Shown one piece after another: positions 3,229-30,404 of a DNA stretch of 35,706 bases (the first letter of the stretch is position 1; every line of letters starts with the position of its first letter). This stretch comes from a virus. The DNA lies in IMG/VR virus record IMGVR_UViG_3300046756_000213, positions 1 through 35,706 of that record. The stretch is one strand, 5' to 3'. A program made the position numbers and the translations under genes. Below the pieces are notes generated by a model, which searched no databases, was not told the origin of the DNA, and worked only from the letters and a program-made list of their open reading frames with translations.

Positions 3229-3318
3229 GGAGAGTTGCCAGAGAGGTCGATCGGGGCTCCCTGCTAAGGAGTTGAACGTGTGAGCGTTCCGAGGGTTCGA
3301 ATCCCTCACTCTCCGCCA
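3229..3318 (+). tRNA. tRNA-Ser (anticodon GCT)
   Basis: The acceptor GGAGAGT (3229-3235) pairs with ACTCTCC (3308-3314), followed by discriminator G and an encoded CCA. The anticodon loop CTGCTAA gives GCT at 3263-3265, reading AGC and AGT serine codons. The long variable arm of about 18 bases is the serine hallmark. AGT is used very often in the virion genes of this window. Confidence 0.95.
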
Positions 3319-3500
3319 AGGACGTGTTGAGGTTGCTCCTCGACTAGTATAGGTTACCAAGTCCTATATGATGAGAAGTGATGTCGCAATCACAACAAAA
3401 GGGTCGATGCAAGTATGCCGGCATGTGTATGCCGTTAGCGTGACGGGGCCGAGCAGGAGGGAATCCTGTGTTGAGAACTCCCCATGCATACACATTAATT
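3319..3500 (+). ncRNA. hairpin-rich segment between tRNAs, candidate structured RNA
   Basis: This 182-base gap has no credible reading frame but many stems. GTTGAGG (3326-3332) pairs with CCTCGAC (3338-3344). TATAGG (3348-3353) pairs with CCTATA (3363-3368), or alternatively AGGAC (3319-3323) with GTCCT (3361-3365). GTGAT (3378-3382) pairs with ATCAC (3389-3393). A ten-pair stem ATGTGTATGC/GCATACACAT (3423-3432 with 3486-3495) encloses CCGT/ACGG, GGGG/CCCC and CAGGA/TCCTG helices. It is clearly more GC-rich than the surrounding AT-rich genes. It is not a tRNA, tmRNA or RNase P RNA that I can recognise. Boundaries are approximate, and it would be transcribed together with the flanking tRNAs. 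Confidence 0.5.
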
Positions 3501-3574
3501 GCGGGTGTTGTGTAATGGTAAGACCTTAGGTTTCCAACCTAAAGATAGGAGTTCGATTCTCCTCACCCGCTCCA
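3501..3574 (+). tRNA. tRNA-Gly (anticodon TCC)
   Basis: The acceptor GCGGGTG pairs with CACCCGC (3564-3570), followed by T and an encoded CCA. Anticodon stem TTAGG/CCTAA carries the loop TTTCCAA, giving TCC, which reads GGA (and GGG). The T-loop GTTCGATTC is standard. Confidence 0.95.
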
Positions 3575-3701: not shown

Positions 3702-3992
3702 ATGAAGATTCGCCCATTACACGATCGAGTGATCGTACGTCGTGAGGAAGAAGAAAAGAAAACAGCAGGTGGAATTTTCCTACCTGGTACAGCACAAGAA
3801 AAACCTAACCAAGGAGAAGTAATTGCCGTCGGTAGTGGAAGGGTTTTAGAAAACGGAGAAGTTACTCCAGTTGATGTTAATATCGGTGACATTATTGTAT
3901 TTGGTCAATTTGCCGGTAGTGACAAGATTGATGCAGACGGTGAAGAACTAATTATTCTTAGCGAAGGCGATATTAAAGCCGTAATTGAATAG
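3702..3992 (+). CDS. groES: co-chaperonin GroES (Cpn10)
   Basis: This is the small lid subunit that caps GroEL and encloses substrate in the folding chamber. The 96 residues match bacterial GroES in length and order: [11 protein letters not shown] at the start, the mobile loop region [19 protein letters not shown] at about residues 19-38, GEVIAVGSG, and a C-terminal [14 protein letters not shown] segment. This is the bacterial type and not a divergent T4 gp31-like protein. No GroEL is in the window, so it would work with host GroEL, probably to fold phage capsid or other abundant proteins. It lies between tRNA-Gln and a 49-codon gene. AGAGG precedes the ATG. Confidence 0.96.
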
Positions 3993-4400: not shown

Positions 4401-4694
4401 ATGAGAGAATGGGTATACAACTGTTGGAATGTAGTAATGGATCACGAAAAGAATCCACTAAGTAATATTCCGGATTTTAGTACACGACATATGATTATGC
4501 AAGTATTAGCATGGATGTGGTGTATTATCTTTGCTATCATTGTAGGTAGTATGTGGGCAGGTATTTTTAGTATGGTGCTTCATGCATTGTTGCTAGGTGC
4601 GATTGCAGTTACAGTAGCAACATTTGAAACTGCAAAACGTAAGCCACAATACTTTGGCGGCTTTGGTCGTGGACAAGGTGGCGAACACGAATAA
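4401..4694 (+). CDS. two-helix membrane protein, 97 aa
   Basis: A short amphipathic head (MREWVYNCWNVVMDHEKNPLSNIPD) precedes two hydrophobic segments at about residues 32-52 and 55-75, and the tail is polar and Gly-rich (FGGFGRGQGG). The head matches a second gene at 9119-9529, which carries SGWRRVMDVKYNPLKYIPD, so the two look like paralogues. The function is unknown. AAAGGACC precedes the ATG, and the gene lies directly after a sigma70 promoter. Confidence 0.75.
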   Translation: MREWVYNCWNVVMDHEKNPLSNIPDFSTRHMIMQVLAWMWCIIFAIIVGSMWAGIFSMVLHALLLGAIAVTVATFETAKRKPQYFGGFGRGQGGEHE

Positions 4695-5207: not shown

Positions 5208-5663
5208 ATGAAAGAATTAGTAGTTTTAGTAGGAGCACTTTTGTTAGCAAGAGTGTTACCTATATTAGATCCAAGTTACGCAAACTTTACCCCATTGTTT
5301 GCTGTAGCAATATTCTTTCCGTTAACACAAAGTAAACTATTATCTTATTCTGTACCGCTAGGAGTAATGTTTTTAACAGACTTATTCTTAGGATTTAGTG
5401 CAATAAATTTAGTAGTGTATTTTGTGTTAGCACTTATCATATCATTATCACGTAGCATTAACAATTATGTTTATACTAGTATTATTGGTATAGGACTGTG
5501 GCATGTTATTGTAAACTTCTTTGTGTGGTTATCAAATCCTAGTATGTCATTATTACAAACTTATGCAATGGCTATACCATTTGACTTTAAACTGTTACTA
5601 AGCACATTAGTATATGGTACAGCATTGTCATTACTATTACAAAGGAAACATGCTTACACTTAA
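5208..5663 (+). CDS. DUF6580-like integral membrane protein, putative vitamin-uptake component
   Basis: The 151 residues are almost entirely hydrophobic, with about five membrane segments. The pattern matches DUF6580, a family that in bacteria often sits beside BtuB-type receptors and resembles substrate-binding S components of ECF transporters. Matching features are the ARVLPILDPSYANFTPLFAV stretch near residue 15, a SVPLGVMFLTDLFLGF segment near residue 47, and IIGIGLWHVIVNFFVWLSN near residue 93. The association with BtuB is remembered from bacterial genomes and not computed here. The gene overlaps the BtuB-like gene by 14 bases, so they are co-expressed. No good Shine-Dalgarno sequence precedes the ATG, which is only eight bases after tRNA-Ala, so tRNA processing may affect its translation. 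An ECF ATPase partner would have to come from the host. Confidence 0.75.
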   Translation: MKELVVLVGALLLARVLPILDPSYANFTPLFAVAIFFPLTQSKLLSYSVPLGVMFLTDLFLGFSAINLVVYFVLALIISLSRSINNYVYTSIIGIGLWHVIVNFFVWLSNPSMSLLQTYAMAIPFDFKLLLSTLVYGTALSLLLQRKHAYT

Positions 5664-7467
5664 AAAAGGAAGAATCAAGAAAGATTTAAAAAGATTACTT
5701 AGAATTGACAATATTATAACCATGGGCTTAATAGCACTACTGTTTTTTGGATTACGGGCCAATGCAGATGACCATTTAACATACCATGGACATACAGTTG
5801 ACCCATTAGAAATTACAATATATGCATACCGTACAGCAAGTGATCACAGAGCAAAAACATATAGTTCAAATGTAATAGAAGCAGACGAACTAGACGATAT
5901 AGAAGTATCTGGAGTTGACTTACAAACAACTGGACCTAAAGGACAACAAACAAGTTTGTTTATTAGAGGTACAAATAGCAATCATTCATTAATTGCTATT
6001 AACGGTATTAGCATTAAAGACCATAGTACAATTTCTGGAAATGACGATCTAGGACAAATAGGAATATTAGGTTTTGATCAAATTGAAATTATAAAAGGAC
6101 CGGCTGGTTCATTATATGGACCTGATGCCATTGGAGGTGTAATTAACTTACAATCAGGTATTAATTATAATAATGAATTAAAGTATACACTAGGATCAAA
6201 CAACTTAAAGAAACAAAATTTAAGTCTTGGTGAAAGTGTAGGTGCTCATCTTTTTAGCCTTGATGTTGAAAAAGAATCTAGTGATAGTATCAGTGTAGCA
6301 GAAGGTCCTGAAACTGATCCATATGTATTTCGTAACTACAACTTTGTATACGAAACATATTTAGATAATGGATACGTATTAACTGGAAATTTAATCGGTA
6401 GAAATAACGATAGCAATCTTGACGGAGGTGGTGTTGACGATCTTGACTATACAGGTAATTGGAAATTTAACAATAGACAAATAGCACTAAAGAATAAAAC
6501 TACTGCGTTTGTTTATAATAATTCAGAACATAAAAGACAATACACAGACGACGGATTGGTTAGTAACTATAACAGTATTAGCGATACATTTTTAACACAT
6601 AAAACATCTACAATAAACGAAATAGACTTTACATATGGACTAGAGTACGTAACTTCTAAAGCAGATTTCGAAGTTAATTTGCCATATTATACTTCATTAG
6701 TAAATGCAACACGTAATAATACAGGACTATTCTTTGGTAGTGATTATGTAATAGACGGTACTGTTGGGTCGTTTGGTGTAAGATACGACAATGCTAGTAA
6801 CTTCAAAAACGAATGGACATATAGAGTTGGTATAGCAAGAGGCAACTATAGATTAAGTCATTCAACTGGATTTAAAACTCCTACCGTTTACGAAATGTAT
6901 GGTATAGACAATTATGGATTTGAAGGCAACCCAAACTTATTTTCTGAAACTAGTAAGTCTTATGAAATTGGATATAATGACGGAGCATTAGATGTTGCGG
7001 TGTTTACTACTTCAGTTAAAGATACATTGACATACGAAGGTTCAACATATAACAATAAAGGTACAAGTAGACACAATGGTGTAGAAATACAATATACAAA
7101 TACATTTGGTCCAGTAACTCTAGTAAACGGTTATACATTATTGTTTACAGAAGATACAAACGGACAGGATCTTTTGCGTCGACCAAAACATAGTTACAAC
7201 GGTAATATATATTATGATGTTGACAGTACTACTAGACTAAAACTTAATGCAAGGTATGACGGAAAGTATGACGATATTCACAGTTCGACTTGGCAAAGAA
7301 CAGAAATGCCGTCAGTATCACTTTTTGATGTGTCATACCAAAAATATGTGGACAACATTTTATTTGAAATAAAGGTTGACAACGTAACTAATAAGCGTTA
7401 CAATAAACCACATGGATACAAGCAGACAGGTAGAACATACCTTGCTAGTATTGCATATAAGTTTTAA
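5650..7467 (+). CDS. btuB: TonB-dependent outer-membrane receptor, BtuB-like (cobalamin)
   Basis: This looks like a full-length TonB-dependent receptor of 605 residues, close to BtuB (614). I start it at ATG 5650 because AAAGGA lies just upstream; the frame opens at 5614. Residues about 21-40 form a signal peptide ending ANAD. A TonB-box-like LEITIYA lies at residues 53-59. The plug contains SLFIRGTNSNHSLIAINGIS (about 102-121), IEIIKGPAGSLYG (145-157) and DAIGGVINL (159-167). These lines closely follow BtuB, in particular the IRGTN..H motif. The C-terminus shows the GY...GR.Y..S..Y.F pattern with terminal Phe, needed for outer-membrane insertion. The remainder alternates as beta-barrel strands. 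Function would be TonB-powered uptake of a corrinoid. Substrate is inferred from similarity. It could also alter host receptor display and so influence superinfection. Confidence 0.9.
   Translation: MLTLKKGRIKKDLKRLLRIDNIITMGLIALLFFGLRANADDHLTYHGHTVDPLEITIYAYRTASDHRAKTYSSNVIEADELDDIEVSGVDLQTTGPKGQQTSLFIRGTNSNHSLIAINGISIKDHSTISGNDDLGQIGILGFDQIEIIKGPAGSLYGPDAIGGVINLQSGINYNNELKYTLGSNNLKKQNLSLGESVGAHLFSLDVEKESSDSISVAEGPETDPYVFRNYNFVYETYLDNGYVLTGNLIGRNNDSNLDGGGVDDLDYTGNWKFNNRQIALKNKTTAFVYNNSEHKRQYTDDGLVSNYNSISDTFLTHKTSTINEIDFTYGLEYVTSKADFEVNLPYYTSLVNATRNNTGLFFGSDYVIDGTVGSFGVRYDNASNFKNEWTYRVGIARGNYRLSHSTGFKTPTVYEMYGIDNYGFEGNPNLFSETSKSYEIGYNDGALDVAVFTTSVKDTLTYEGSTYNNKGTSRHNGVEIQYTNTFGPVTLVNGYTLLFTEDTNGQDLLRRPKHSYNGNIYYDVDSTTRLKLNARYDGKYDDIHSSTWQRTEMPSVSLFDVSYQKYVDNILFEIKVDNVTNKRYNKPHGYKQTGRTYLASIAYKF
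7376..7404 (+). promoter_or_regulatory. sigma70-type promoter inside the end of the BtuB-like gene
   Basis: TTGACA (7376-7381) and TACAAT (7399-7404) are exactly 17 bases apart. It lies within coding sequence, about 65 bases before tRNA-Glu, and would let tRNA-Glu and tRNA-Asp be expressed apart from the receptor. Confidence 0.55.
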
Positions 7468-13597: not shown

Positions 13598-14077
13598 ATG
13601 GCTTATTATAGCACTAAAACATACGGACACAACATCGGACTATCAGCGGTGTTCCGTCAACCTAAGGCAATGCATTCACATTGTCATTTACTTCATGGAT
13701 ATAGTTTACAGTTCAAATTTGTATTTGGATGTTCAGACTTAGATGAGAAAAACTGGGCTGTTGACTTCGGTGGATTGAAGCCGTTAAAGGCTTGGCTCGA
13801 AGATAGTTTTGATCATAAGACAGCAATTGATATTGCAGACCCAGAACTAGAAACTTTTAAAGCATTAGAAGAAAAAGGTCTAGCAGAGATTAGAACTTTT
13901 GATGGTGTTGGTTGTGAGAAGTTTGCATATCACGCATGGAAGTTTGCTGATGAACTTATTAGAGAAATTAGCGATGGACGTTGTTGGTGTGAATCAGCTG
14001 AATGTGCAGAGCATGGTGCTAACAGTGCAATCTATACACCATACTCAGTGCAAAAGATGTCACACGTAGATGGCTAA
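13598..14077 (+). CDS. QueD / 6-pyruvoyl-tetrahydropterin synthase family protein, divergent
   Basis: QueD makes 6-carboxytetrahydropterin, the first committed precursor of queuosine and other 7-deazaguanines. The 159 residues keep the family outline: LHG at 32-34 preceded by Cys29, WAVDFGGLKPLKAWL at 53-67 and FDHKTAI at 71-77. By eye alignment with E. coli QueD, two of three zinc-binding histidines are replaced, namely Phe19 for the AAH histidine and Tyr35 for the second histidine of LHGH. Nearby His26, His28 and His30 could substitute. A Cys-rich insert (GRCWCESAECAEHG) lies near the C-terminus. I recall this variant form in marine phages. It may still act on a pterin, or may have changed function. 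The stop overlaps the glycosyltransferase start. Confidence 0.82.
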   Translation: MAYYSTKTYGHNIGLSAVFRQPKAMHSHCHLLHGYSLQFKFVFGCSDLDEKNWAVDFGGLKPLKAWLEDSFDHKTAIDIADPELETFKALEEKGLAEIRTFDGVGCEKFAYHAWKFADELIREISDGRCWCESAECAEHGANSAIYTPYSVQKMSHVDG

Positions 14078-18731: not shown

Positions 18732-21700
18732 ATGGCACAAGGTAAACAAGACATTAATATCGGCGTTGAAGGTAACGACGGAACCGGCGATAGTATTAGA
18801 GAAGCGTTTAGAAAGGTAAATGATAATTTTACCCAACTATATGCTGTATTTGGACAAGGTGGTTCGATATCATTTACTGAATTTAGTGATACTCCAACAC
18901 TAACACAACTCCAAGAGAATCCTAGTACATTTTCAAGACCTACTTTACCAGTAGTAGACGTTGCTGCTGAAGGTAGTAAGTTAGAATTTAGAAAATTAGT
19001 TAGTAACAGTTTCCTTGATGCATCTGTTGATGATACTGTACAATTTAGTTTGACACAAGGCGGTTACATTGTTGTAACAGCGGCTGGTGGACAATTAGAA
19101 GAAGACGAAAAACCAAAAATTAATTCAACTGGTGGTGGTATTAATGCTTCAGGAAATATTATTGCTGGTATGCCAACCAGTCTTAATGACATTGAAAGTA
19201 AGTTATCCGTTCTTAATGCTGCACATGATGGTGCAGGATATACAACTGACAGTGTTGCAATATCAAAAGGATTTGCAGATACCAATTATCTAAAGTCAAC
19301 TGGTGGTGGTACTGGCGCACAAATTAGAGTTCGTACTGAAGATCAAATCTTTACAGAAGATTACTCATTTACAATTGATAGTTTTACAGCAGGCGTTGCC
19401 AATATTACTGGTAGAACTGTAGACGGAACATTAATTACAGTTCCAGCAGGTCACGGACTTGATAGTGGTGCTAATGGTTTACCATTTAGATACGAAACTA
19501 CAGGCACAAGTGCAACAGCAACACCGGCATCAAGTGCCGTTGCTCAACCACTTACAAATCTAAATCCAGTTTATGTTAGAGTTGCAAGTGCAACATCACT
19601 AGAATTTTATGAAAATGCTGAGGCTGCAAAAAATGCTACAGCAAATAGAAAGATCAGTTTCCAAGCAGGTACTGGTTCAGGAACACAATCACTAGTTGAT
19701 GCAGAATATCAACCAAGTATACTAGACGGTAAGTTCCTTGCTAACGAAGCAATGCCTAGAGAGGCTGCACTTAGACGTCAAGGTGACCAAATGGATGGTA
19801 CACTTTACCTTGACAAGCACCCAGGTGACTTAGCAAACATTACAACAGGCTTAGAAGATTTACAAGCCGCTACTAAATTTTATGTAGACAACACAAGTTA
19901 TGCAAGTAATGTAAACTTGTTTGTTAGTTTACAAGGTGACGATAACCAAGTTAATACACCGGCAGGTAAAGAAGGTAGAGCATTAAGTTATGCTTATCGT
20001 ACACTGAATGCTGCATTACAAAAAGCAGAAGAAATTATTGAAACAAGTAAGTTGGAACCTGGTCCATATATGCAGACCATTACTATTGACGATACTGTTC
20101 CAACTCATGTATTAAGTGGAAACACAAACGATCTAGGATTTAAAGTTCCAGCAACATATAACGGACAACAGACAGCAAACTTTAAAGCATTAATGGACAA
20201 TAACAAAGCATTTGTTCAAGAAGAAGTTATTGCTTGGACTAATGCACAGATTGCGGCAGCCAATGCAGCTGTTAGTTTAGACCCTAATGTTCCAGCAGAA
20301 GCAGAATTAATTAAATGGAAAAACTTTACATACGACGAAGATATTTGTAAACGTGATGTAGGATTAATTTACGAAAGTTTAAAACTTGACGTTATTAGTG
20401 GTACTAACGCAAACAAACTTGCAAGACAAGCAGGTTTAAGATACTATAGTAATGCCAGCGGTGCTATTGCTATTGGTCCACAGAAAGAACAAACACTTGC
20501 ATCAATTGCAAAAGTTGAAGAAATTACTAGACAGTATGTTTTAACTAACTCGCCATGGCAAGGTGGCACAGGTAACCCAGGTGTTTATCAAACTGACGTA
20601 CAACAAAATGTTGTTTCACCAGGCACACCGGCTCCTGCAGATGCTATTGCAAGAGTAGGCGACCTATTTGATATTATTGAAAGCATTATTAATAACGGTA
20701 TAAGTGGTGCACCAGTATTACAAGAAGGTTCTGTATACGTAATTGAAGTTGATAACGGTGGTAACGGTAATGTATGGCAAGGAAAAGCAACTAACACAGA
20801 TTTAATTCCAGGTAAAGTTATTACAGGATCTAAGTCAGGCGCTGTATCAAGAATTGTAAACTATTATAGAGGCGACGAACTAGGTGGAGCAGGCAATGAC
20901 CAAATTGAACTTCAACTTGAAGAACCAATAGAATTTATTGCTAGGTCTGATCCGGGTGTTGCTACAGCAGATGATCCAACTTATGAAGCAGGCGATATAC
21001 TTGAGTTTGGTAATAAAGTAAGTCAACAAAATATTACAGTATTTTTAGAAACTGGTATATTCTACGAGGACTATCCGTTACGTGTTCCAGCAAACGTTTC
21101 CATTAAAGGTGACGAATTTAGACGTACACACATTCGACCAAGAAATCGTGTATCACAGTCAAGATGGGCTAATCAATATTTCCACAGAGACAACTACTTT
21201 GATAATATGACACTACACAATCATAGTGTAGAAATTGAAGGTGAAGTAGAAATAACATTAACGCAAGCGGTAACTGTTAATGTAGGTGATAAGGTTACAC
21301 AAACTGTTGCAACAGGAACAGCAATTGGTTTTGTACAAGAAAAAGCAACTAATTCAACCACTATAGTTGTACAATATTTTGACGGGTATGATCCAGTAAC
21401 TAATAACGGTGTTCCACCAAGCGAAACAGGAAACGGATATGCTGATGTAGTTCAATTTGATACTGTAGTAAACAACAATATTTCAATTAATAATTCTGTA
21501 CAAAGCGGAACATACTTAACAACAGCGCCAACACAGTATTCAAGAGATACAAACTTTGGTTATCATTATGGCCTTGACCCAAGACGCCCAATTAACACTC
21601 AGGCGAACAGTGTAGTTAATGCAGGAGGCTATACTAATGCTGTTTCTATCTTAGAAAAAAATAGAGATGCTATTGTACAAGAAGTTTTACTATTCTTAGA

Positions 21701-24700
21701 TGAATCGTCAACTAATAATTTAAACAATGGTGGCTTTGGTGATTACACTCAAGTTGAACTAACACTAACAGGCAACGTAACATTTAGCAGAGGCGATACA
21801 GTTACACAATCAGGAAGCGGAGTAACTGGTAAAGTAAAAAGTGATAGTACTGGAAATTCAGTAATTATTGTAGGACCAGATGGTATATTTGATACTAGTG
21901 GCGAACTTTCAGTAGGCGGAGTAAGCAAAGGAGCAAATAGTGTTCCAGCTACGGTACCAGCGGCAGTTGCATTTACATATGGTCCAAAATGTGCAAGAGA
22001 CTTAGGACTTATTGTTGATGCATTGGCATTTGACTTAGAAAAAGGTCTTGTTGATCAGTCACTTGAAGCACAAGGAAGATACTATGCAGGTGCTGTAGAA
22101 GTAGGTCAAGAAGTTATAACTTCAGCGGCTATTTTAGAAATTGGTAACATTGCACAGGCACTACTTGGTGCATCAGCAACACCAGTTGGAACTCCAAGTG
22201 TTCCAAGTTCAAGACAGGCGGCGTCAGCATGGGATATTGCAGTAACAACGTCACAACTTGCTGAATCAGGAACAAGTACTATTGTTTCTGGATTATTAAA
22301 TATTATAGTATTTGCGTTTAACAGCGAATACAATCCACCTAAACACAATAAAGATATGGATGTCTTCTTAATGAATGACGCAACTATCTTACGTAATATG
22401 ACTGTACAAGGTCATGGTGGATTTATGTGTGTACTTGATCCAGATGGACAGATACTTACTAAATCACCATACATACAAACAGGATCAAGTTTCTCACAAT
22501 CAATAAACAAACAAGCATTTAGAGGTGGTATGTTTGTTGATGGTTTTGTAAGTAACATGCCATTAGAAATTGTTGACAACATTACAAGTGCAGGTGTTAA
22601 TTCACCATTTGAAATATTTGTAAGAAGTAGAAGAGATTCTAAACAAGTTAATAGTAACGGAGTAGGACTTGGATTATTTGCAAGACGTCCTCAACTACCT
22701 GCACCATTCTATGTAAACGGTGTACGTTACCAAGTTAATGCTATTAGAAACTATGACCCTACTAACGGTACAGCAGAACTTATACTTGATAAAAATTCAA
22801 ACCCAGATGCAAATGATGAAGGACAAGGTTGGATTGGTGGAGAAAATTATCCAATCGTACTTCAAACAGCTGGTAACAGATCTATGCTTGGTAATGACTT
22901 TACGCAAGTTAATGATTTAGGTTACGGACTATTATGTACTAACAATGGTATATCTGAAATGGTTAGTATGTTTACATACTACTGTCACGCAGCTTATTAT
23001 GCGAATAACGGTTCAGAGATTAGATCGTTAAATGGATCAAACGCTTATGGTAACTTTGGACTAGTTGCTGCAGGCGGTGACCCGAATGAGGTTGCACAAA
23101 CTGGTTCATTAGCATTTAATACTTCACAAACAGGTAAAGTATATGTGAATCCAAGTGCTAGTGCAAACGCTAACGCATTACAAACATTTGTATATGCATA
23201 CGATACAGACTTTGCTCCTTTACCAGAAGGTGAAATTGATGTAACATATAACGAAGAAAAAGAGATTGCTAGTATATCAGCATCTAATCCTGTTGTATTA
23301 AATGTTGAAGCTCATGGATTTGTAGAAGGACAACGAGTACTTGTATCTGAAAGTAATATTCCTACTACTGGTGGTGGTGCTAATCCAGGACTAGACGGAA
23401 TTCGATATGTTGGCCCTAGCCCATCAACAGGAACTTTAACACTTTACACTGACGCATCATTGACTACAACATTAAACGGTTCATCGTATAATACAGGTTC
23501 GTTAGGTAACAATGCTGTGATACAAGATGCAGGCGGTACAGCAACATCATCAAGTAGATTTGAAGTTGTATCTGTTACTGATGCACAATCAGCAGACGGT
23601 GTTCCGGGCGTTAACGAAGTTAAACTTACTCTAAACGGAGCATTAACTAATGTTCCTTACAACACAAGAGTAACTATTACAGCAGGAACTGGACAAACAG
23701 CAACGGCTCCTTTAGGTAGAGTAACTAGACCAATTAAAGATGGTGTTAATAACAGTACAATCTATGTAACACTACCAGAAAATAGAGATCAGTTTAGTGT
23801 TGGAGACACAATATACACTGACGGTACTACTACAAGTAGAACTATTGCAAGTATTGAAACTAACTTAGATAAAGCAGGTCGTAAAACTATTATTGGTGTA
23901 ACAAAAACAAACCCTGTTGTACTTGAAACTATTGGACATAACTTTATAGACGAAGATGCAATTACTATTGTTGACGGATCAGGAATAACAGAATTAAATG
24001 GAACGTATTATGCTAAAGTTAGCACAACTACAGGCGGAACTACTAATGATAAACGATATGTAGAACTGTATAGTGATTCAGCATTAACTACACCAGTAAA
24101 CGGAACAGGATGGGGCGGATCATACACAGCAAGATCAGGTAAAGTATTTTTAACTGAAATTGGTGGCAACCCACTAATTGGTGAAAACGGTGCTGTATGG
24201 AAACTGTCATTCTCTAACTCAACTAATGATGAATCAGTAAGTACAGGCGGACTAGCAAAGCCATTGTTTGCTGGTGAATCATTAAGTATTAGAGCAAGAG
24301 CTAAGTTTATCTTAGACAATGTACAGACTGTTCCAATTAGACCTTCAACAGCAGTTGTGTTTGAAGAACAGCCAGAAAACACTTATCGTTCTATTAACTT
24401 TGACGTAACTCCAATTAGTACTTTTGATAATGCAGGTGAAGCAACTTTACCAGATGGTCAAAACATACTTACATTTGATAGTAACTATGATTATATTAGA
24501 CAAAGAGTTGAGTATGATAACTATAAAGCACAGTTTAAACTAGTACTTGCAAGTGCTACAACTGGCACAATAGCAGAAGGATCTGTTGTTAGACAAGGTT
24601 CTGCATCAGGTACAATAACAAAATCAGAAGGCGTAGGTACAGAAGAACTTTATATTAAAGACTGGAACGGTACTGATTTTACTGTAGGTGGTGGAAACAT

Positions 24701-27700
24701 TGAACACGATGCCGCAGGGGACGGAAACTTTAGTAGTGTCGGCGGACTAGCAGGAAGCGGCGCTGTTAAATTAAGTTACTTAACAACAAATGGATTTAAA
24801 GAATCGTTTGGTGGTACACCAGGTGATAGATACATTGCTATTCCAGCATTAGGTACAGAGTCTACAGTAAGAATTCAAAATGCAGATATGATATTTGCAT
24901 GGAAAGATAGAGTACATAAAATTCTTGCATATCACGATGGAGCAGGAACATCTACTGGTTCTATTGGAACAAGAGAAGCAGGAGAACCTAATTCACATGC
25001 AACAGGATTTGCGTATTTAGAAATTGATCGTAATTCAGTAAGTAACAAATATTATGATCCAGACGAAACAGCACCTACTACAGGTATTGCTGATACATTA
25101 AGTCTTGGTAACGAAAGTGATAATGTTAACCTTGCAATTGGTGTTCCGGCAGGTGAAGGTGCAGAGATTACTGTTAACATTTCATTATGTAGAGCAACAG
25201 GACATGACTTTAGTAACATTGGTACAGGTGGATTTAATACATCTAACTATCCAAATATTATCTTTGGACAACCTGCTTCAGATAAGACAGCAATCGTAAC
25301 AAGTGATCCAACAGTAACAAAAGCACAAGTTTGGGAAAGAAACAAAGGGCGTGTGTTCTTTGCATCAACAGACGAAGATGGATTCTTTAGAGTTGGTAAG
25401 TTCTTTACAGTTGACCAGGGTACTGGTACAATATCATTTACAGCACAAATTAATATCTCAGGACTAGACGGACTTGGATTTAAAGATGGTGAAATTATTA
25501 GTAAGTTTACAAGTAGTTTCACACAGTCAACAGCAGAACTTAAAAATGTTCCTACAGAAGTTGCTGTAGTAGATTACATTAATAGACGTTTAGGCTTTGA
25601 TGAATTTAACGTAGCAGATCCTGCACCACTTACAACGGTAATGAGTGCAACTAATCCACAGTTAACACCAGTAACAGTAGGTGGAGAAACTACACATACA
25701 CTGAACATGACAAATGGTAGAATTACTTTACTAAAACGTCCTGTTGCAGATACTGATGCGGCAACCAAAGAATACATTGATAACAGAATATTTGCAAATG
25801 ATGAATTTGAAGATCTTCGTAACGTAAGTTTTTATCAAACAGATTTTAATAACCAAAATGGTCAAAGTGATTTAATTGTACTAACAGGTAAAAAGAAAAT
25901 ATATGTCAAGTACGTTGCAGGAACTATGTTCTCAGTAAACGATGTTATATATGGTGAAGATACTAATAGTGCAGGACGTATTGTTGACATTAGTGATACA
26001 TTCAAATTTGACAATGGTGAAAATAGTACAGACACAGCATCAGGACTTGATGTACAAGTTATAACTTATACAGTTTTACCATTAACAATGGTTAACTTAA
26101 ATGCAACTGGAACTGTTGCTGTAAGAGGACAACTGTTAAGACAACCTTCAACAGGCGCACAAGGTTATGTATTACATCCACAAACAGTAGTTGGATCAGG
26201 TAAAACAAGTGCTACACAGATGATTCTAAGAGAAGTAACAGGATCATTTAATGGTACTGCTATTGAGCTTGTAAACAATCCGGGCGGTAGTGAAACTGTA
26301 GTTGCAACATCAGCATTGGTTACTAGCACAGCAGCTATTGCAGACGGTGTAAGTGGAGATCCTATAGACTTCCAAGCAGAAACTATATCAAACGGAAATG
26401 TATCAAGAAATACTACACAAGGTAGAGATGGTCTTGCTGTATATCCAATGGTTGAAGTTGCAAACGCAAGTGAAAGCAAAACTGGTAGTCCTGGTGATGC
26501 ATCACGTAGTGATATTAATATAACAGTAACTAGATCAGAAGATGCTACAAGTGTTAACTTACAATATCAAGCAGAAAGTTTACTAGATGCAGATGTTAAT
26601 ACAAACGCAGATATACAACAACAAAAACTATTAATGCAAAAGGCTCCTGTATTACAGGACAGTGACGACTTTGAAGACTTTACTACTAATGGTAGAAGAG
26701 TAAGTCAAGCAAACAAAGGTATTGCTGCGTTCTCTGCAGATGCATTTGCTGAAGATCAAGTATTTGTATTCACAGGATCTGTTAGTGCAAACGTAGGCGA
26801 TATTATAACACAAGGTTCTAATATTGGTTACATTGATAAAGTTATTAATAGTACTACTCTTAAAGTTAGAACAAGTGATACATTTGTTACAGGTGGAGCA
26901 ACAACATGCTTTATTACACCAATAACAACATTTAACTTACCTGGAAGTGCTAACGCTGTACAACAGACTTCAAGCATAAAAGGAACACCAGTTGATTCAA
27001 CTAGAACTATTACTACAATAGAAAAAACTGGTTTTGTTAATGTTAAAGATAGAGGTATAACATTTGATAAGATTCAAGATATACCAGAAAAAACTGTAAT
27101 TGGTAGAGGTGACATTGGTGACCCTGCATACAATACAGACGGTATACCATACGCTGTTAGTTTTGATCAAATTATTGATTTAGGCGGAGCAATACAGGAT
27201 AAGGATTTTGCAAATAGCACAATTACAGAAGTTGGTGGTTGGGTAATACAAACCGAAGGACTTGTTAGTGTTGCAAACGGTGCAACTGTAAGTTCAGGTG
27301 GTGTTAGTGCAACTGTACAAGGCGCTGTTACAAGTGAAAATAAAATTATTGTTATAAATGCAACTAGTACTTTCCCAGGAACAGGAACACTTGCAGGAGT
27401 AACAGCAGACAGTCATGCATCTGCAGCAACTATTGTAAGTGCAACTCAATTCTCAAGTTCGGGTGAAGCACTAGTTAAAATGGCTGACGGTGTATATGGT
27501 ACTACACAGATTACTAAAGCAGGTGAAGGTAACCAATTAGTACGTACACTTGATAATAACGATCAAAACGATCTAACATTTGTTTCAGCAAATACTGAAG
27601 GATTTATTAATGTTAAAGGATTGTTAGTTGACAGTCGTAGAGCATTAGATACACGTTCAGCAGGCGGTAGCACATTCTTAGACGTTTATACACCAAACGA

Positions 27701-30404
27701 AAACTTAGCAATGAGCATATCAGGTGTTACTCCTGGTGCTAGTCAAGTTGACGAAAGTATAGTTGAGATTCCAACAGCAAGTGTTGACATTGGTGATATT
27801 GGTATAAGAGTAGAGCAAGTTACTTCACCAGCAACAGGCAAAAACGGTCATGCTAGTGTGTTCCAACAGAACGCATCTGCAAATACACCAGCAAATAGTA
27901 AACCACACTTGGCTGTTGATTGGGTGTTTACAAACTTTATTCAAGATCCAGACGATCTAACAGCAACTGGTTCAGGTATTGCATTAGGTAATATTAGTCC
28001 ATATACAACTGCTGGTCAAACAGCAATTATTGCTAATGGTAAGAATGCGTTACTAGCAGATTCAACAGGAGTTGTACTGAGATCAGGAGATGTTGATGTA
28101 CTAACAGCATTATCAGGAACAACCACAGTTAAAAATGCATTTACTGTTGAAGGTAATACAACACTTGGTAGTGGCGATGATACATTAAGTATTGGCTCAA
28201 CTATCATTACTGATGTTGACTTGCAAAGAACTAATGCAGACTCCGCAGGTTATACTTTAGACATTATTAAGAAAACAAGCAGTGTTGCAAACGCAGACGG
28301 TGTTGGTACTATTAACTTTAGAAGCAACGATGATGCAGGACCAATTGCTACTTTACATACATACGGTGCTATAAAATCAACAATAGCAGATATTGCAACT
28401 GCAAGTAAAGATGGTAAACTTGAATTCCAAGTACAAAGAAATAACACTCTTACTACAGCAATAGCAATTGACGACCAAGTTGATGTTACTGGCATACTAA
28501 ATGTTAGTGGCGCACTAAATGCAGATAGTACATTGAATGCAAACTTAACTACTGATTCAACTAGCACATCTACAGGATCATTGATTGTAGATGGTGGTGC
28601 AGGTATTGCTAAGAAACTATACGTTGGAGGCAACTTTGACATAGGTGGTAAGTTCAATGTAACAGCAACTAGTGGTAACACAGATATTGATGGTACTCTT
28701 GTTGTTAACGATACAACTGATGCATCAAGTTCAACAACAGGGTCAGTAATAATTGACGGTGGTGTTGGCATTGCTAAGAAATTGTATGTTGGAACTGATT
28801 TAGATGTTACAGGAAATACTGTAATTGACGGTAACTTAACTGTTAGCGGAAACTTTGACTTAGGTGATGATGTTGCTGCTGATACATTTACTATTACAAG
28901 TACACTTGACACACCACATATTAAAATTAGAAATACACAAGAAAACAACGGTGTTGGTGATAATATAATTGAATTCTTCCATGACACAACTTCACCAGCT
29001 GATGAAGACTACTTAGGTGCATTACACTTTAAGATGGACAATTCACAAACTGCCGTTGACGGTGGTGTTAATTCTGAACTGGTTGTTAGAGCTGTTGATG
29101 TAACACTTGGTAGTGAAAAATCTACGTTTGACTTCTTAACAGCTAGTGGAACTAATGCATCTGCATTAAAATTCCAAATTGGTACTGATGCAGTTATAAC
29201 TCATGCAAGTATTTTACCTGATTCAAATGAATCAGTGGACCTTGGTGCTAATGGCCAAGCGTTTGGACAAATACATGCAGCAGGATTTGTTGGACCAGTG
29301 ACAGGTGATATTTCAGGTGATATTACAGGTGATGTAACTGGTGACTTAACTGGTAATGCTGATACAGCAACTAGTTTGAAAGACGGTGCAGCTAATGAAG
29401 TACCATACCAAAGTGCTACAGGCACAACTAGTTATGTAGGAGCAAACACTACAACAACACAAAAATTCCTAGCAATGACTGGTGATGCTACCAGTGGAGC
29501 AGCTCCAGTATGGGACACAATTGATGCAGCTACTATTGACAGTGGTACATTAGGTACTGATAGAATACCAAGTTTAGGTGCAAGTAAAATTACATCTGGT
29601 ACATTAGGTACTGATAGAATACCAAATTTAAATGCAAGTAAAATTAATGCTGGTACATTTGATAGTGCTAGATTGCCCAACTTGACAGTTAGTGACTTTG
29701 GTGCAGCAGCTGTTCAAACAGGCACTGAAGTTGCAGCTGATGGTACAAGTTTAGTCGACGACGATACTTCATTCTTAACAGCGGCCGCTATTAAAAACTT
29801 TGTTGAAGGTAAAGGATATGCTACAAGCTCAGGTGGTGTTTCAGATGCAACGAACGCAGCTAATTTTGCTGTTAACGCTGTAGGTTCAGAACCAACTACT
29901 GGTAGTTTTAATCTTGTATTAGTTGGTAGTAACACTGGTAATAATGCGGCAAGAACAGACAGCGGAGGACTTAGTTTTAATGTTGGTACTCAAACGCTTA
30001 ATGCTACAGCATCGTCAGCAAACTACGCTGACTTGGCAGAGAAATACGTAGGTGACGAAGCATACGAACCAGGTACTGTTGTTGTATTTGGCGGCGCTGA
30101 AGAAATTACTGCTTGTACAATAAAAGGTGATCGTAAAGTAGCAGGTGTTGTATCAACTGATCCTGCATACTTAATGAACAATCAGTTAGAAGGCGATACT
30201 GTTGTTCCATTAGCACTAACAGGGCGTGTTCCTTGTAAAGTAATTGGTACTGTTGCTAAAGGTGACATGCTTGTAACTAGTGCTGTTCCTGGATATGCTA
30301 TTGTTGATAACGATCCTAAGATGGGTACTGTAATTGGTAAGGCTGTAGGAACAAAAGAAGATGACGGCAAAGGCACTGTAGAAGTTGTAGTTGGTCGCTT
30401 ATAA
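18732..30404 (+). CDS. giant tail-fibre/adhesin-like virion protein, 3890 aa
   Basis: One unbroken 11.7 kb frame. Residues 1-45 (DINIGVEGNDGTGDSIREAF and FRKVNDNFTQLYAVFG) are the N-terminal module of marine phage fibre proteins. About residue 394 begins LFVSLQGDDN, with GRALSYAYRTLNAALQKAEE, and about 770 FLETGIFYEDYPLRVPANVS starts a beta-helix-like region continuing to ILRNMTVQGHGGF near 1220. A short beta module 'GD.V.Q....G.I' recurs about nine times, and an FCCH-like HG.. module about three times. A phage-fibre PVADTDAATKEYIDN motif is near 2330. Near 3280-3360 are two copies of a DGG.GIAKKLYVG unit, and near 3605 three 18-residue repeats. The end, from YADLAEKYV at about 3763, resembles the G2-type autoproteolytic or chaperone-like fibre C-terminus. 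A role in host adhesion is inferred. GGAG precedes the ATG. Confidence 0.88.
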   Translation: MAQGKQDINIGVEGNDGTGDSIREAFRKVNDNFTQLYAVFGQGGSISFTEFSDTPTLTQLQENPSTFSRPTLPVVDVAAEGSKLEFRKLVSNSFLDASVDDTVQFSLTQGGYIVVTAAGGQLEEDEKPKINSTGGGINASGNIIAGMPTSLNDIESKLSVLNAAHDGAGYTTDSVAISKGFADTNYLKSTGGGTGAQIRVRTEDQIFTEDYSFTIDSFTAGVANITGRTVDGTLITVPAGHGLDSGANGLPFRYETTGTSATATPASSAVAQPLTNLNPVYVRVASATSLEFYENAEAAKNATANRKISFQAGTGSGTQSLVDAEYQPSILDGKFLANEAMPREAALRRQGDQMDGTLYLDKHPGDLANITTGLEDLQAATKFYVDNTSYASNVNLFVSLQGDDNQVNTPAGKEGRALSYAYRTLNAALQKAEEIIETSKLEPGPYMQTITIDDTVPTHVLSGNTNDLGFKVPATYNGQQTANFKALMDNNKAFVQEEVIAWTNAQIAAANAAVSLDPNVPAEAELIKWKNFTYDEDICKRDVGLIYESLKLDVISGTNANKLARQAGLRYYSNASGAIAIGPQKEQTLASIAKVEEITRQYVLTNSPWQGGTGNPGVYQTDVQQNVVSPGTPAPADAIARVGDLFDIIESIINNGISGAPVLQEGSVYVIEVDNGGNGNVWQGKATNTDLIPGKVITGSKSGAVSRIVNYYRGDELGGAGNDQIELQLEEPIEFIARSDPGVATADDPTYEAGDILEFGNKVSQQNITVFLETGIFYEDYPLRVPANVSIKGDEFRRTHIRPRNRVSQSRWANQYFHRDNYFDNMTLHNHSVEIEGEVEITLTQAVTVNVGDKVTQTVATGTAIGFVQEKATNSTTIVVQYFDGYDPVTNNGVPPSETGNGYADVVQFDTVVNNNISINNSVQSGTYLTTAPTQYSRDTNFGYHYGLDPRRPINTQANSVVNAGGYTNAVSILEKNRDAIVQEVLLFLDESSTNNLNNGGFGDYTQVELTLTGNVTFSRGDTVTQSGSGVTGKVKSDSTGNSVIIVGPDGIFDTSGELSVGGVSKGANSVPATVPAAVAFTYGPKCARDLGLIVDALAFDLEKGLVDQSLEAQGRYYAGAVEVGQEVITSAAILEIGNIAQALLGASATPVGTPSVPSSRQAASAWDIAVTTSQLAESGTSTIVSGLLNIIVFAFNSEYNPPKHNKDMDVFLMNDATILRNMTVQGHGGFMCVLDPDGQILTKSPYIQTGSSFSQSINKQAFRGGMFVDGFVSNMPLEIVDNITSAGVNSPFEIFVRSRRDSKQVNSNGVGLGLFARRPQLPAPFYVNGVRYQVNAIRNYDPTNGTAELILDKNSNPDANDEGQGWIGGENYPIVLQTAGNRSMLGNDFTQVNDLGYGLLCTNNGISEMVSMFTYYCHAAYYANNGSEIRSLNGSNAYGNFGLVAAGGDPNEVAQTGSLAFNTSQTGKVYVNPSASANANALQTFVYAYDTDFAPLPEGEIDVTYNEEKEIASISASNPVVLNVEAHGFVEGQRVLVSESNIPTTGGGANPGLDGIRYVGPSPSTGTLTLYTDASLTTTLNGSSYNTGSLGNNAVIQDAGGTATSSSRFEVVSVTDAQSADGVPGVNEVKLTLNGALTNVPYNTRVTITAGTGQTATAPLGRVTRPIKDGVNNSTIYVTLPENRDQFSVGDTIYTDGTTTSRTIASIETNLDKAGRKTIIGVTKTNPVVLETIGHNFIDEDAITIVDGSGITELNGTYYAKVSTTTGGTTNDKRYVELYSDSALTTPVNGTGWGGSYTARSGKVFLTEIGGNPLIGENGAVWKLSFSNSTNDESVSTGGLAKPLFAGESLSIRARAKFILDNVQTVPIRPSTAVVFEEQPENTYRSINFDVTPISTFDNAGEATLPDGQNILTFDSNYDYIRQRVEYDNYKAQFKLVLASATTGTIAEGSVVRQGSASGTITKSEGVGTEELYIKDWNGTDFTVGGGNIEHDAAGDGNFSSVGGLAGSGAVKLSYLTTNGFKESFGGTPGDRYIAIPALGTESTVRIQNADMIFAWKDRVHKILAYHDGAGTSTGSIGTREAGEPNSHATGFAYLEIDRNSVSNKYYDPDETAPTTGIADTLSLGNESDNVNLAIGVPAGEGAEITVNISLCRATGHDFSNIGTGGFNTSNYPNIIFGQPASDKTAIVTSDPTVTKAQVWERNKGRVFFASTDEDGFFRVGKFFTVDQGTGTISFTAQINISGLDGLGFKDGEIISKFTSSFTQSTAELKNVPTEVAVVDYINRRLGFDEFNVADPAPLTTVMSATNPQLTPVTVGGETTHTLNMTNGRITLLKRPVADTDAATKEYIDNRIFANDEFEDLRNVSFYQTDFNNQNGQSDLIVLTGKKKIYVKYVAGTMFSVNDVIYGEDTNSAGRIVDISDTFKFDNGENSTDTASGLDVQVITYTVLPLTMVNLNATGTVAVRGQLLRQPSTGAQGYVLHPQTVVGSGKTSATQMILREVTGSFNGTAIELVNNPGGSETVVATSALVTSTAAIADGVSGDPIDFQAETISNGNVSRNTTQGRDGLAVYPMVEVANASESKTGSPGDASRSDINITVTRSEDATSVNLQYQAESLLDADVNTNADIQQQKLLMQKAPVLQDSDDFEDFTTNGRRVSQANKGIAAFSADAFAEDQVFVFTGSVSANVGDIITQGSNIGYIDKVINSTTLKVRTSDTFVTGGATTCFITPITTFNLPGSANAVQQTSSIKGTPVDSTRTITTIEKTGFVNVKDRGITFDKIQDIPEKTVIGRGDIGDPAYNTDGIPYAVSFDQIIDLGGAIQDKDFANSTITEVGGWVIQTEGLVSVANGATVSSGGVSATVQGAVTSENKIIVINATSTFPGTGTLAGVTADSHASAATIVSATQFSSSGEALVKMADGVYGTTQITKAGEGNQLVRTLDNNDQNDLTFVSANTEGFINVKGLLVDSRRALDTRSAGGSTFLDVYTPNENLAMSISGVTPGASQVDESIVEIPTASVDIGDIGIRVEQVTSPATGKNGHASVFQQNASANTPANSKPHLAVDWVFTNFIQDPDDLTATGSGIALGNISPYTTAGQTAIIANGKNALLADSTGVVLRSGDVDVLTALSGTTTVKNAFTVEGNTTLGSGDDTLSIGSTIITDVDLQRTNADSAGYTLDIIKKTSSVANADGVGTINFRSNDDAGPIATLHTYGAIKSTIADIATASKDGKLEFQVQRNNTLTTAIAIDDQVDVTGILNVSGALNADSTLNANLTTDSTSTSTGSLIVDGGAGIAKKLYVGGNFDIGGKFNVTATSGNTDIDGTLVVNDTTDASSSTTGSVIIDGGVGIAKKLYVGTDLDVTGNTVIDGNLTVSGNFDLGDDVAADTFTITSTLDTPHIKIRNTQENNGVGDNIIEFFHDTTSPADEDYLGALHFKMDNSQTAVDGGVNSELVVRAVDVTLGSEKSTFDFLTASGTNASALKFQIGTDAVITHASILPDSNESVDLGANGQAFGQIHAAGFVGPVTGDISGDITGDVTGDLTGNADTATSLKDGAANEVPYQSATGTTSYVGANTTTTQKFLAMTGDATSGAAPVWDTIDAATIDSGTLGTDRIPSLGASKITSGTLGTDRIPNLNASKINAGTFDSARLPNLTVSDFGAAAVQTGTEVAADGTSLVDDDTSFLTAAAIKNFVEGKGYATSSGGVSDATNAANFAVNAVGSEPTTGSFNLVLVGSNTGNNAARTDSGGLSFNVGTQTLNATASSANYADLAEKYVGDEAYEPGTVVVFGGAEEITACTIKGDRKVAGVVSTDPAYLMNNQLEGDTVVPLALTGRVPCKVIGTVAKGDMLVTSAVPGYAIVDNDPKMGTVIGKAVGTKEDDGKGTVEVVVGRL
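28561..28810 (+). repeat. two-copy repeat in the giant fibre gene (GIAKKLYVG units)
   Basis: Two units about 165 bases apart encode STGS(L/V)I(V/I)DGG(A/V)GIAKKLYVG. The DNA is diverged (for example AAACTATACG against AAATTGTATG), so the copies are old and held by selection on protein. Confidence 0.75.
29544..29700 (+). repeat. 54-bp tandem repeat, three copies, in the giant fibre gene
   Basis: Copies begin at 29544, 29598 and 29652. The first two share the 27-base-plus core starting GGTACATTAGGTACTGATAG with no change; the third is diverged. They encode 18-residue units of the form GTLGTDRIP.L.ASKI. Confidence 0.85.

Follow-up and report, generated by a model that had tools for sequence, protein, structure and literature searches.

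The 182-base gap at positions 3319-3500 of the window (the whole stretch of 35,706 nucleotides of virus DNA analysed here) harbours a structured RNA that almost certainly constitutes a real and new RNA family. The sequence-only reading of this DNA had put forward a structured RNA candidate of no known class, and this proposal is borne out by the presence of the element on ~52 contigs, by covarying stems and by the lack of an Rfam match. The best reading of its role, to which we give a probability of roughly 0.6, is that of a trans-acting RNA that would be freed from tRNA transcripts.

The gap is flanked by the genes for tRNA-Ser(gct) and tRNA-Gly(tcc), both found on the + strand by ARAGORN. 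As had been noticed, it is richer in GC than its surroundings (G+C of 0.489 vs 0.369 for the window) and devoid of reading frames, with stops in all six frames. The features of the locus are as follows, the interval of the new RNA being the span of the match to the covariance model (~178 nt):

3229..3318, + strand: tRNA-Ser(gct), adjoining the RNA on its 5' side (ARAGORN, Rfam)
3321..3498, + strand: new structured RNA, matching the covariance model over its full length (177 bits and E 8e-48 with cmsearch; the window sequence is a seed member)
3501..3574, + strand: tRNA-Gly(tcc), adjoining the RNA on its 3' side (ARAGORN, Rfam)

The genes for ClpP (2141-2728) and GroES (Cpn10; 3702-3992) stand on either side of the tRNA array, and the window also codes for a QueD-like enzyme (13598-14077). 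A single ORF of 3,890 residues (18732-30404, +) takes up one third of the window. Another ORF of 617 residues (5614-7467, +) harbours the barrel and plug of a TonB-dependent receptor (Pfam E-values of 5e-26 and 1e-15) and adjoins a DUF6580 domain (5208-5663). To our knowledge, TonB-dependent receptors, which serve outer-membrane uptake, are seldom encountered in phages; a phage BLAST with the 617-residue ORF returned six records only, several of them evidently of bacterial or mixed origin.

Using Rfam 15, we detected only tRNAs in the window, and the hits in other members of the family correspond to tRNAs or tmRNAs that all lie outside the element. The segment 3319-3500 itself has no cmscan match at the gathering score and no credible one at E-values up to 10, and the GOLLD and ROOL covariance models gave no hit at either level. 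Neither ARAGORN nor cmscan revealed a cloverleaf or T-loop in this segment. The tmRNA model has no match within the element, and true tmRNAs were found elsewhere in the same records. The near-misses SNORA62 and sX4 were discarded, as they overlap a tRNA and do not recur in other members, and so was a sub-threshold Plastid-psbl-rps4 hit (3264-3315, - strand), which is the antisense of tRNA-Ser.

Covariation and fold of the RNA

The structure of the gap RNA exceeds chance by covariation, not by folding energy. Compared with shuffled sequences, the folding energy of the gap is no better than expected (z of -0.75, and -2.0 for the minus strand; about -0.9 on average over the family), an outcome that had been set beforehand as counting against a structured RNA. 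Folding energy tests a pseudoknotted RNA only weakly, and its result is outweighed because the homologues show compensatory changes, as the sequence-only reading had asked to be checked.

Alignment A2, with 26 sequences and a 40-pair structure, is paired in 92.6% of cells, and both sides have changed in 23 pairs. None of 500 shuffles reached the observed pairing, and sliding the partners by 1-3 columns brought pairing down to 29-48%. Because kinship of the sequences can imitate covariation, we also applied a tree-based null, in which substitutions were re-dealt along a FastTree tree and pairs were scored with a G-test and APC correction. Among 15,753 column pairs, the top three are base pairs of P4, P6 and PK1, all belonging to the structure, and 7 of 43 structure pairs passed an E-value of 0.05. 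The covariation test was also run with subfamily C included. The elements of the fold are the following:

3326-3332 with 3338-3344, + strand: hairpin P1; six of six counted pairs vary on both sides; E_struct of 0.011 for 3326-3344
3347-3353 with 3363-3369, + strand: hairpin P2, with a PK1 strand in its loop; paired in 99.5% of cells; E_struct of 0.024 for 3353-3363
3356..3358, + strand: 5' strand of PK1, in the P2 loop; partner 3402-3404
3378-3382 with 3389-3393, + strand: hairpin P3; paired in 93% of cells
3402..3404, + strand: 3' strand of PK1, just 3' of P3; partner 3356-3358
3409-3411 with 3416-3418, + strand: mini-hairpin P4, with an AGUA loop; 3410-3417 covaries
3419-3423 with 3430-3434, + strand: possible stem S1, pairable in 100% of sequences; its loop would hold the 5' strand of P5
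3425-3428 with 3490-3493, + strand: P5, which closes the 3' domain; E_struct of 0.05-0.1 for three of four pairs
3438-3442 with 3483-3487, + strand: P6; 3441-3484 covaries
3445-3447 with 3479-3481, + strand: P7; E_struct of 0.015-0.04 for two of three pairs; subfamily B loses some pairs
3454-3458 with 3464-3468, + strand: variable apical hairpin P8; CAGGA/TCCTG in the window, elsewhere C-GAAA-G or a longer hairpin

The first-ranked pair of the tree-based analysis is 3410-3417 in P4 (GC/CG/AU), with all null pairs scoring lower, followed by 3441-3484 in P6 (AU/CG/UA/GU; E_all of 0.005-0.015). Third comes the middle pair of PK1, 3357-3403, which is GC, CG, UA or UG across phages (E_struct of 0.0002); PK1 was absent from the model used for the alignment. 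P5 is re-paired among phages as GUGU/ACAC, AUGA/UCAU, GCAA/UUGC and GUAA/UUAC, and pair 3454-3468 is UA or CG in every sequence having P8. We only infer S1, because it is nearly invariant although always pairable. One change suggests a possible contact between the P1 and P3 loops (GC/GC, and AC/GU in L174). Invariant single strands include CUAG, AUGA..GAA, AACAAAAG, CGAU before P4, the GYCGUUAG strand and GGAG...GUUGA.

In subfamily C (L178, L183-L185, L190), PK1 comprises five pairs (GGUGA/UCACC), and P2 (GUAUGCC/GGCAUAU) and P3 (CUGU/ACAG) have different letters yet are still paired. L190 (413-636) has the 5' domain of subfamily C, followed by a 3' domain almost the same as in a subfamily-B member (L150:1572-1797); the two domains have recombined. 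A second pseudoknot suggested by RNAalifold, PK2 (3323-3325/3448-3450), was dropped, as it is not significant and its pairing is disrupted both in subfamily C and in the chimaera L190.

Much of the architecture initially perceived in the window is thus found in the family. The three successive hairpins, P1 to P3, are present and kept in homologues, and the palindrome ATGCCGGCAT at 3415-3424 covers the conserved P4 and S1 strands. A ten-pair stem (3423-3432/3486-3495) can form in the window, of which the family keeps only the P5 core. The GGGG/CCCC stem (3445-3448/3480-3483) is not kept in its exact form, its place being taken by the covarying pairs of P7, and the CAGGA/TCCTG hairpin is real in the window but variable across the family. 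Homologues lend no support to a CCGT/ACGG stem (3432-3435/3443-3446), which they do not conserve, or to a switch through AGGAC/GTCCT, whose 5' AG is not conserved. PK1, P4 and the family-wide tie to tRNA arrays come in addition to that first description.

Pair 3347-3369 is a constant G-U in 31 of 35 sequences, where the opposite strand would give C.A, and all adjacent tRNAs have the same sense as the RNA. Both the constant G-U pairs and the orientation of the tRNAs indicate that + is the functional strand.

Family members, carriers and genomic neighbourhood

Related phages were first collected by protein-anchored scans, and then through pattern scans of IMG/VR, which brought the family to about 52 phage contigs; this size is a lower bound, because all scans used exact core patterns. 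Chance matches were discarded by eye and with covariance model R1, to which true members are full-length matches with 97-186 bits, many of these scores belonging to seed sequences. The alignment holds 35 distinct sequences, which fall into three subfamilies, with RNA lengths of 162-226 nt. In all 26 carriers whose records were searched in full, a single copy was found. A BLAST of the element against INPHARED phages and plasmids yielded short chance matches only. A pattern scan of bacterial genome contigs returned 71 stretches, all attributable to chance and none matching the covariance model, and no core match was found in sampled genomes of 385 Alphaproteobacteria and 369 gammaproteobacteria. 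The jumbo or large phages Phosso, Atu_ph07, PA5oct, OC and phiM19, related through ClpP or other proteins, gave weak matches of ~15 bits or less that lack the invariant letters. In the literature, for the most part outside subscription journals, we found no phage RNA of such description.

The carriers are large, mostly marine phages, with contigs of up to 300 kb. Among 18 RNA-bearing records tested, 11 have the ClpP of the window and 10 an alpha-type tmRNA above the cut-off. The ClpP of the window is closest to those of Sinorhizobium and Agrobacterium jumbo phages; together with the alpha-type tmRNA, this affinity suggests that the hosts of the carrier phages are probably alphaproteobacterial. 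Two-piece permuted alphaproteobacterial tmRNAs exceed the Rfam cut-off in L044, L056 and L174 and in records G001, G015, G017, G021, G026, G031, G036-G038 and G040. The tags of these phage tmRNAs include, for example, ANDNYAPEMALAA, and most of the tmRNA phages tested also have ClpP. It is possible that tmRNA and ClpP form a phage-supplied pair for trans-translation and degradation.

A same-strand tRNA gene lies within 150 nt of the RNA in 24 of 31 distinct loci, often at 0-5 nt, where random placement within the same contigs would give 2.9. The adjacent tRNA varies (Ser, Gly, Met, Leu, Trp, Asn, Pro, Arg, Gln, Glu, Ala), and the ORFs located 3' of the RNA are unrelated among phages. L013, a more distant relative of the window phage, has the element with 86% identity; L012, near-identical to L013 around the locus, is devoid of it, as is L003, whose neighbour protein is 95% identical and in which 4 nt separate the tRNA genes for Ser and Gly. 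The unrelated downstream genes and the close relatives lacking the RNA argue for a discrete, exchangeable RNA gene. Since cassettes of the RNA with tRNA-Gly (L051, L134, L140) or with tRNA-Gln recur, gain and loss are explicable by recombination between tRNA genes.

In L159-L162, the RNA and its short flanks form a conserved island between unrelated genes, with a promoter-like TTGACC...TAGATT separating the RNA from the next gene. In these four contigs and L145, the RNA comes with the 5' hairpin AGGCG-loop-CGCCU and, downstream, with a promoter-like site, and the flanking genes differ per contig; this island appears to be a gene-replacement hot spot. Elsewhere, an ORF for a probable membrane protein of 97 residues without Pfam or PHROG match, situated 0.9 kb from the RNA in the window (4401-4694, +), adjoins the RNA upstream in L047, L135 and L147 and downstream in L138, L169 and L170. 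This link is suggestive only, because the ORF is present in L003, which lacks the RNA.

Proposed role and comparison with known RNAs

We propose that the RNA would be co-transcribed with the tRNA array and released by the same nucleases that process the tRNAs on either side. It would act in trans during infection as a single stable, folded molecule, with a putative partner (protein, ribosome or RNA) holding its invariant single strands. Its lineage and neighbourhood place it in the phage translation kit, alongside tRNAs and often a two-piece tmRNA. Release by tRNA processing cannot be the sole route, since 7 of the 31 loci have no tRNA within the contig sequence examined. More tentatively, the family might be a compact RNA machine of a new class, be it an RNP scaffold, a ribosome-binding RNA or a ribozyme, which large marine phages would add to their own tRNA/tmRNA/ClpP kit so as to alter host translation or quality control.

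The conserved, compact pseudoknotted fold would also suit an element that controls a downstream gene or tRNAs in cis, whether as a riboswitch, as a leader, or through transcript stability or spacing. The RNA is directly upstream of a start codon in L055, L060 and L174, and in these and in L138, L144 and L166 an ORF is found within ~50 nt on the 3' side, mostly behind an RBS-like stretch. We nevertheless consider this explanation unlikely: no expression platform is conserved, L159-L162 have a promoter-like site ahead of the next gene, and what lies downstream is either unrelated ORFs or varied tRNAs (Gly, Gln, Leu, Arg, Glu, Ala). This diversity argues against the leader of one gene family, and no conserved class of downstream genes, as would mark a riboswitch or leader, emerged from the comparison. 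It is quite improbable that the RNA is a small catalytic RNA, self-cleaving or other, that would process its own or the tRNA transcript. Its location inside tRNA arrays and its compact pseudoknotted core, whose long unpaired strands are invariant in the manner of ribozymes, are in keeping with such an activity; however, it has no match to the hammerhead or any other Rfam ribozyme family, and relatives without the RNA retain the flanking tRNA genes, indicating that tRNA maturation there must proceed without it.

Presence in some phages and absence from others, together with varied neighbours, show movement between phages, as might be seen if a mobile element had left its guide or template RNA behind (an IscB/TnpB omega RNA, or the RNA of a retron or of a defence reverse transcriptase). 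Such an origin is very unlikely, as the RNA occurs in single copy, shares no neighbouring gene and has no Rfam match to RNAs of these types, and recombination of tRNA cassettes explains the exchange. The idea of a decayed tRNA, tmRNA piece or gene remnant draws on the position in tRNA arrays and on the permuted tmRNA of this lineage. It is scarcely credible given the strong compensatory evolution, which refutes it, the lack of tRNA or tmRNA matches with ARAGORN and Rfam, and the presence of the RNA alongside a tmRNA in L044 and L174.

Several known RNAs can be compared with the new one. Stable RNAs C and D of phage T4 are non-tRNA stable RNAs within a phage tRNA cluster. We know of no wide covarying family to which they belong; compared by description only, they resemble the new RNA by their place in a tRNA cluster and differ by host group. 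The permuted alphaproteobacterial tmRNA (RF01849 / RF04321) is likewise pseudoknot-bearing and is found in many phages that have the new RNA, but it occupies a separate locus in these genomes, and the new RNA does not match it.

GOLLD and ROOL are phage or prophage RNAs of unknown function, often found near tRNA islands (PMC12286853). GOLLD has an elaborate fold, and ROOL harbours multiple pseudoknots and has no known protein partner (PMC12286853). GOLLD is often longer than 800 nt and assembles into a 14-mer cage; ROOL is also larger than the new RNA and cage-forming. Like GOLLD, the new RNA is phage-encoded (all carriers are virus contigs), often lies beside tRNAs and has an elaborate fold; with ROOL, it shares the proximity of tRNA islands and a pseudoknot. 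In contrast with GOLLD, it measures 162-226 nt and is unrelated in sequence and fold, with no Rfam match; it is smaller than ROOL and shows no match to it in sequence or structure. The new RNA thus shares its setting with GOLLD and ROOL and is not a member of either. Few phage noncoding RNAs have folds supported by covariation, and those of tRNA islands, GOLLD and ROOL, are without known function. Because it is small, single-copy and found in many large marine phages, the new RNA should lend itself far better than these to probing, purification and structure solution, and would offer a tractable route to the question of what tRNA-island RNAs do for phages. What is new here is the family; the kind, a structured phage RNA in tRNA arrays, was already known.
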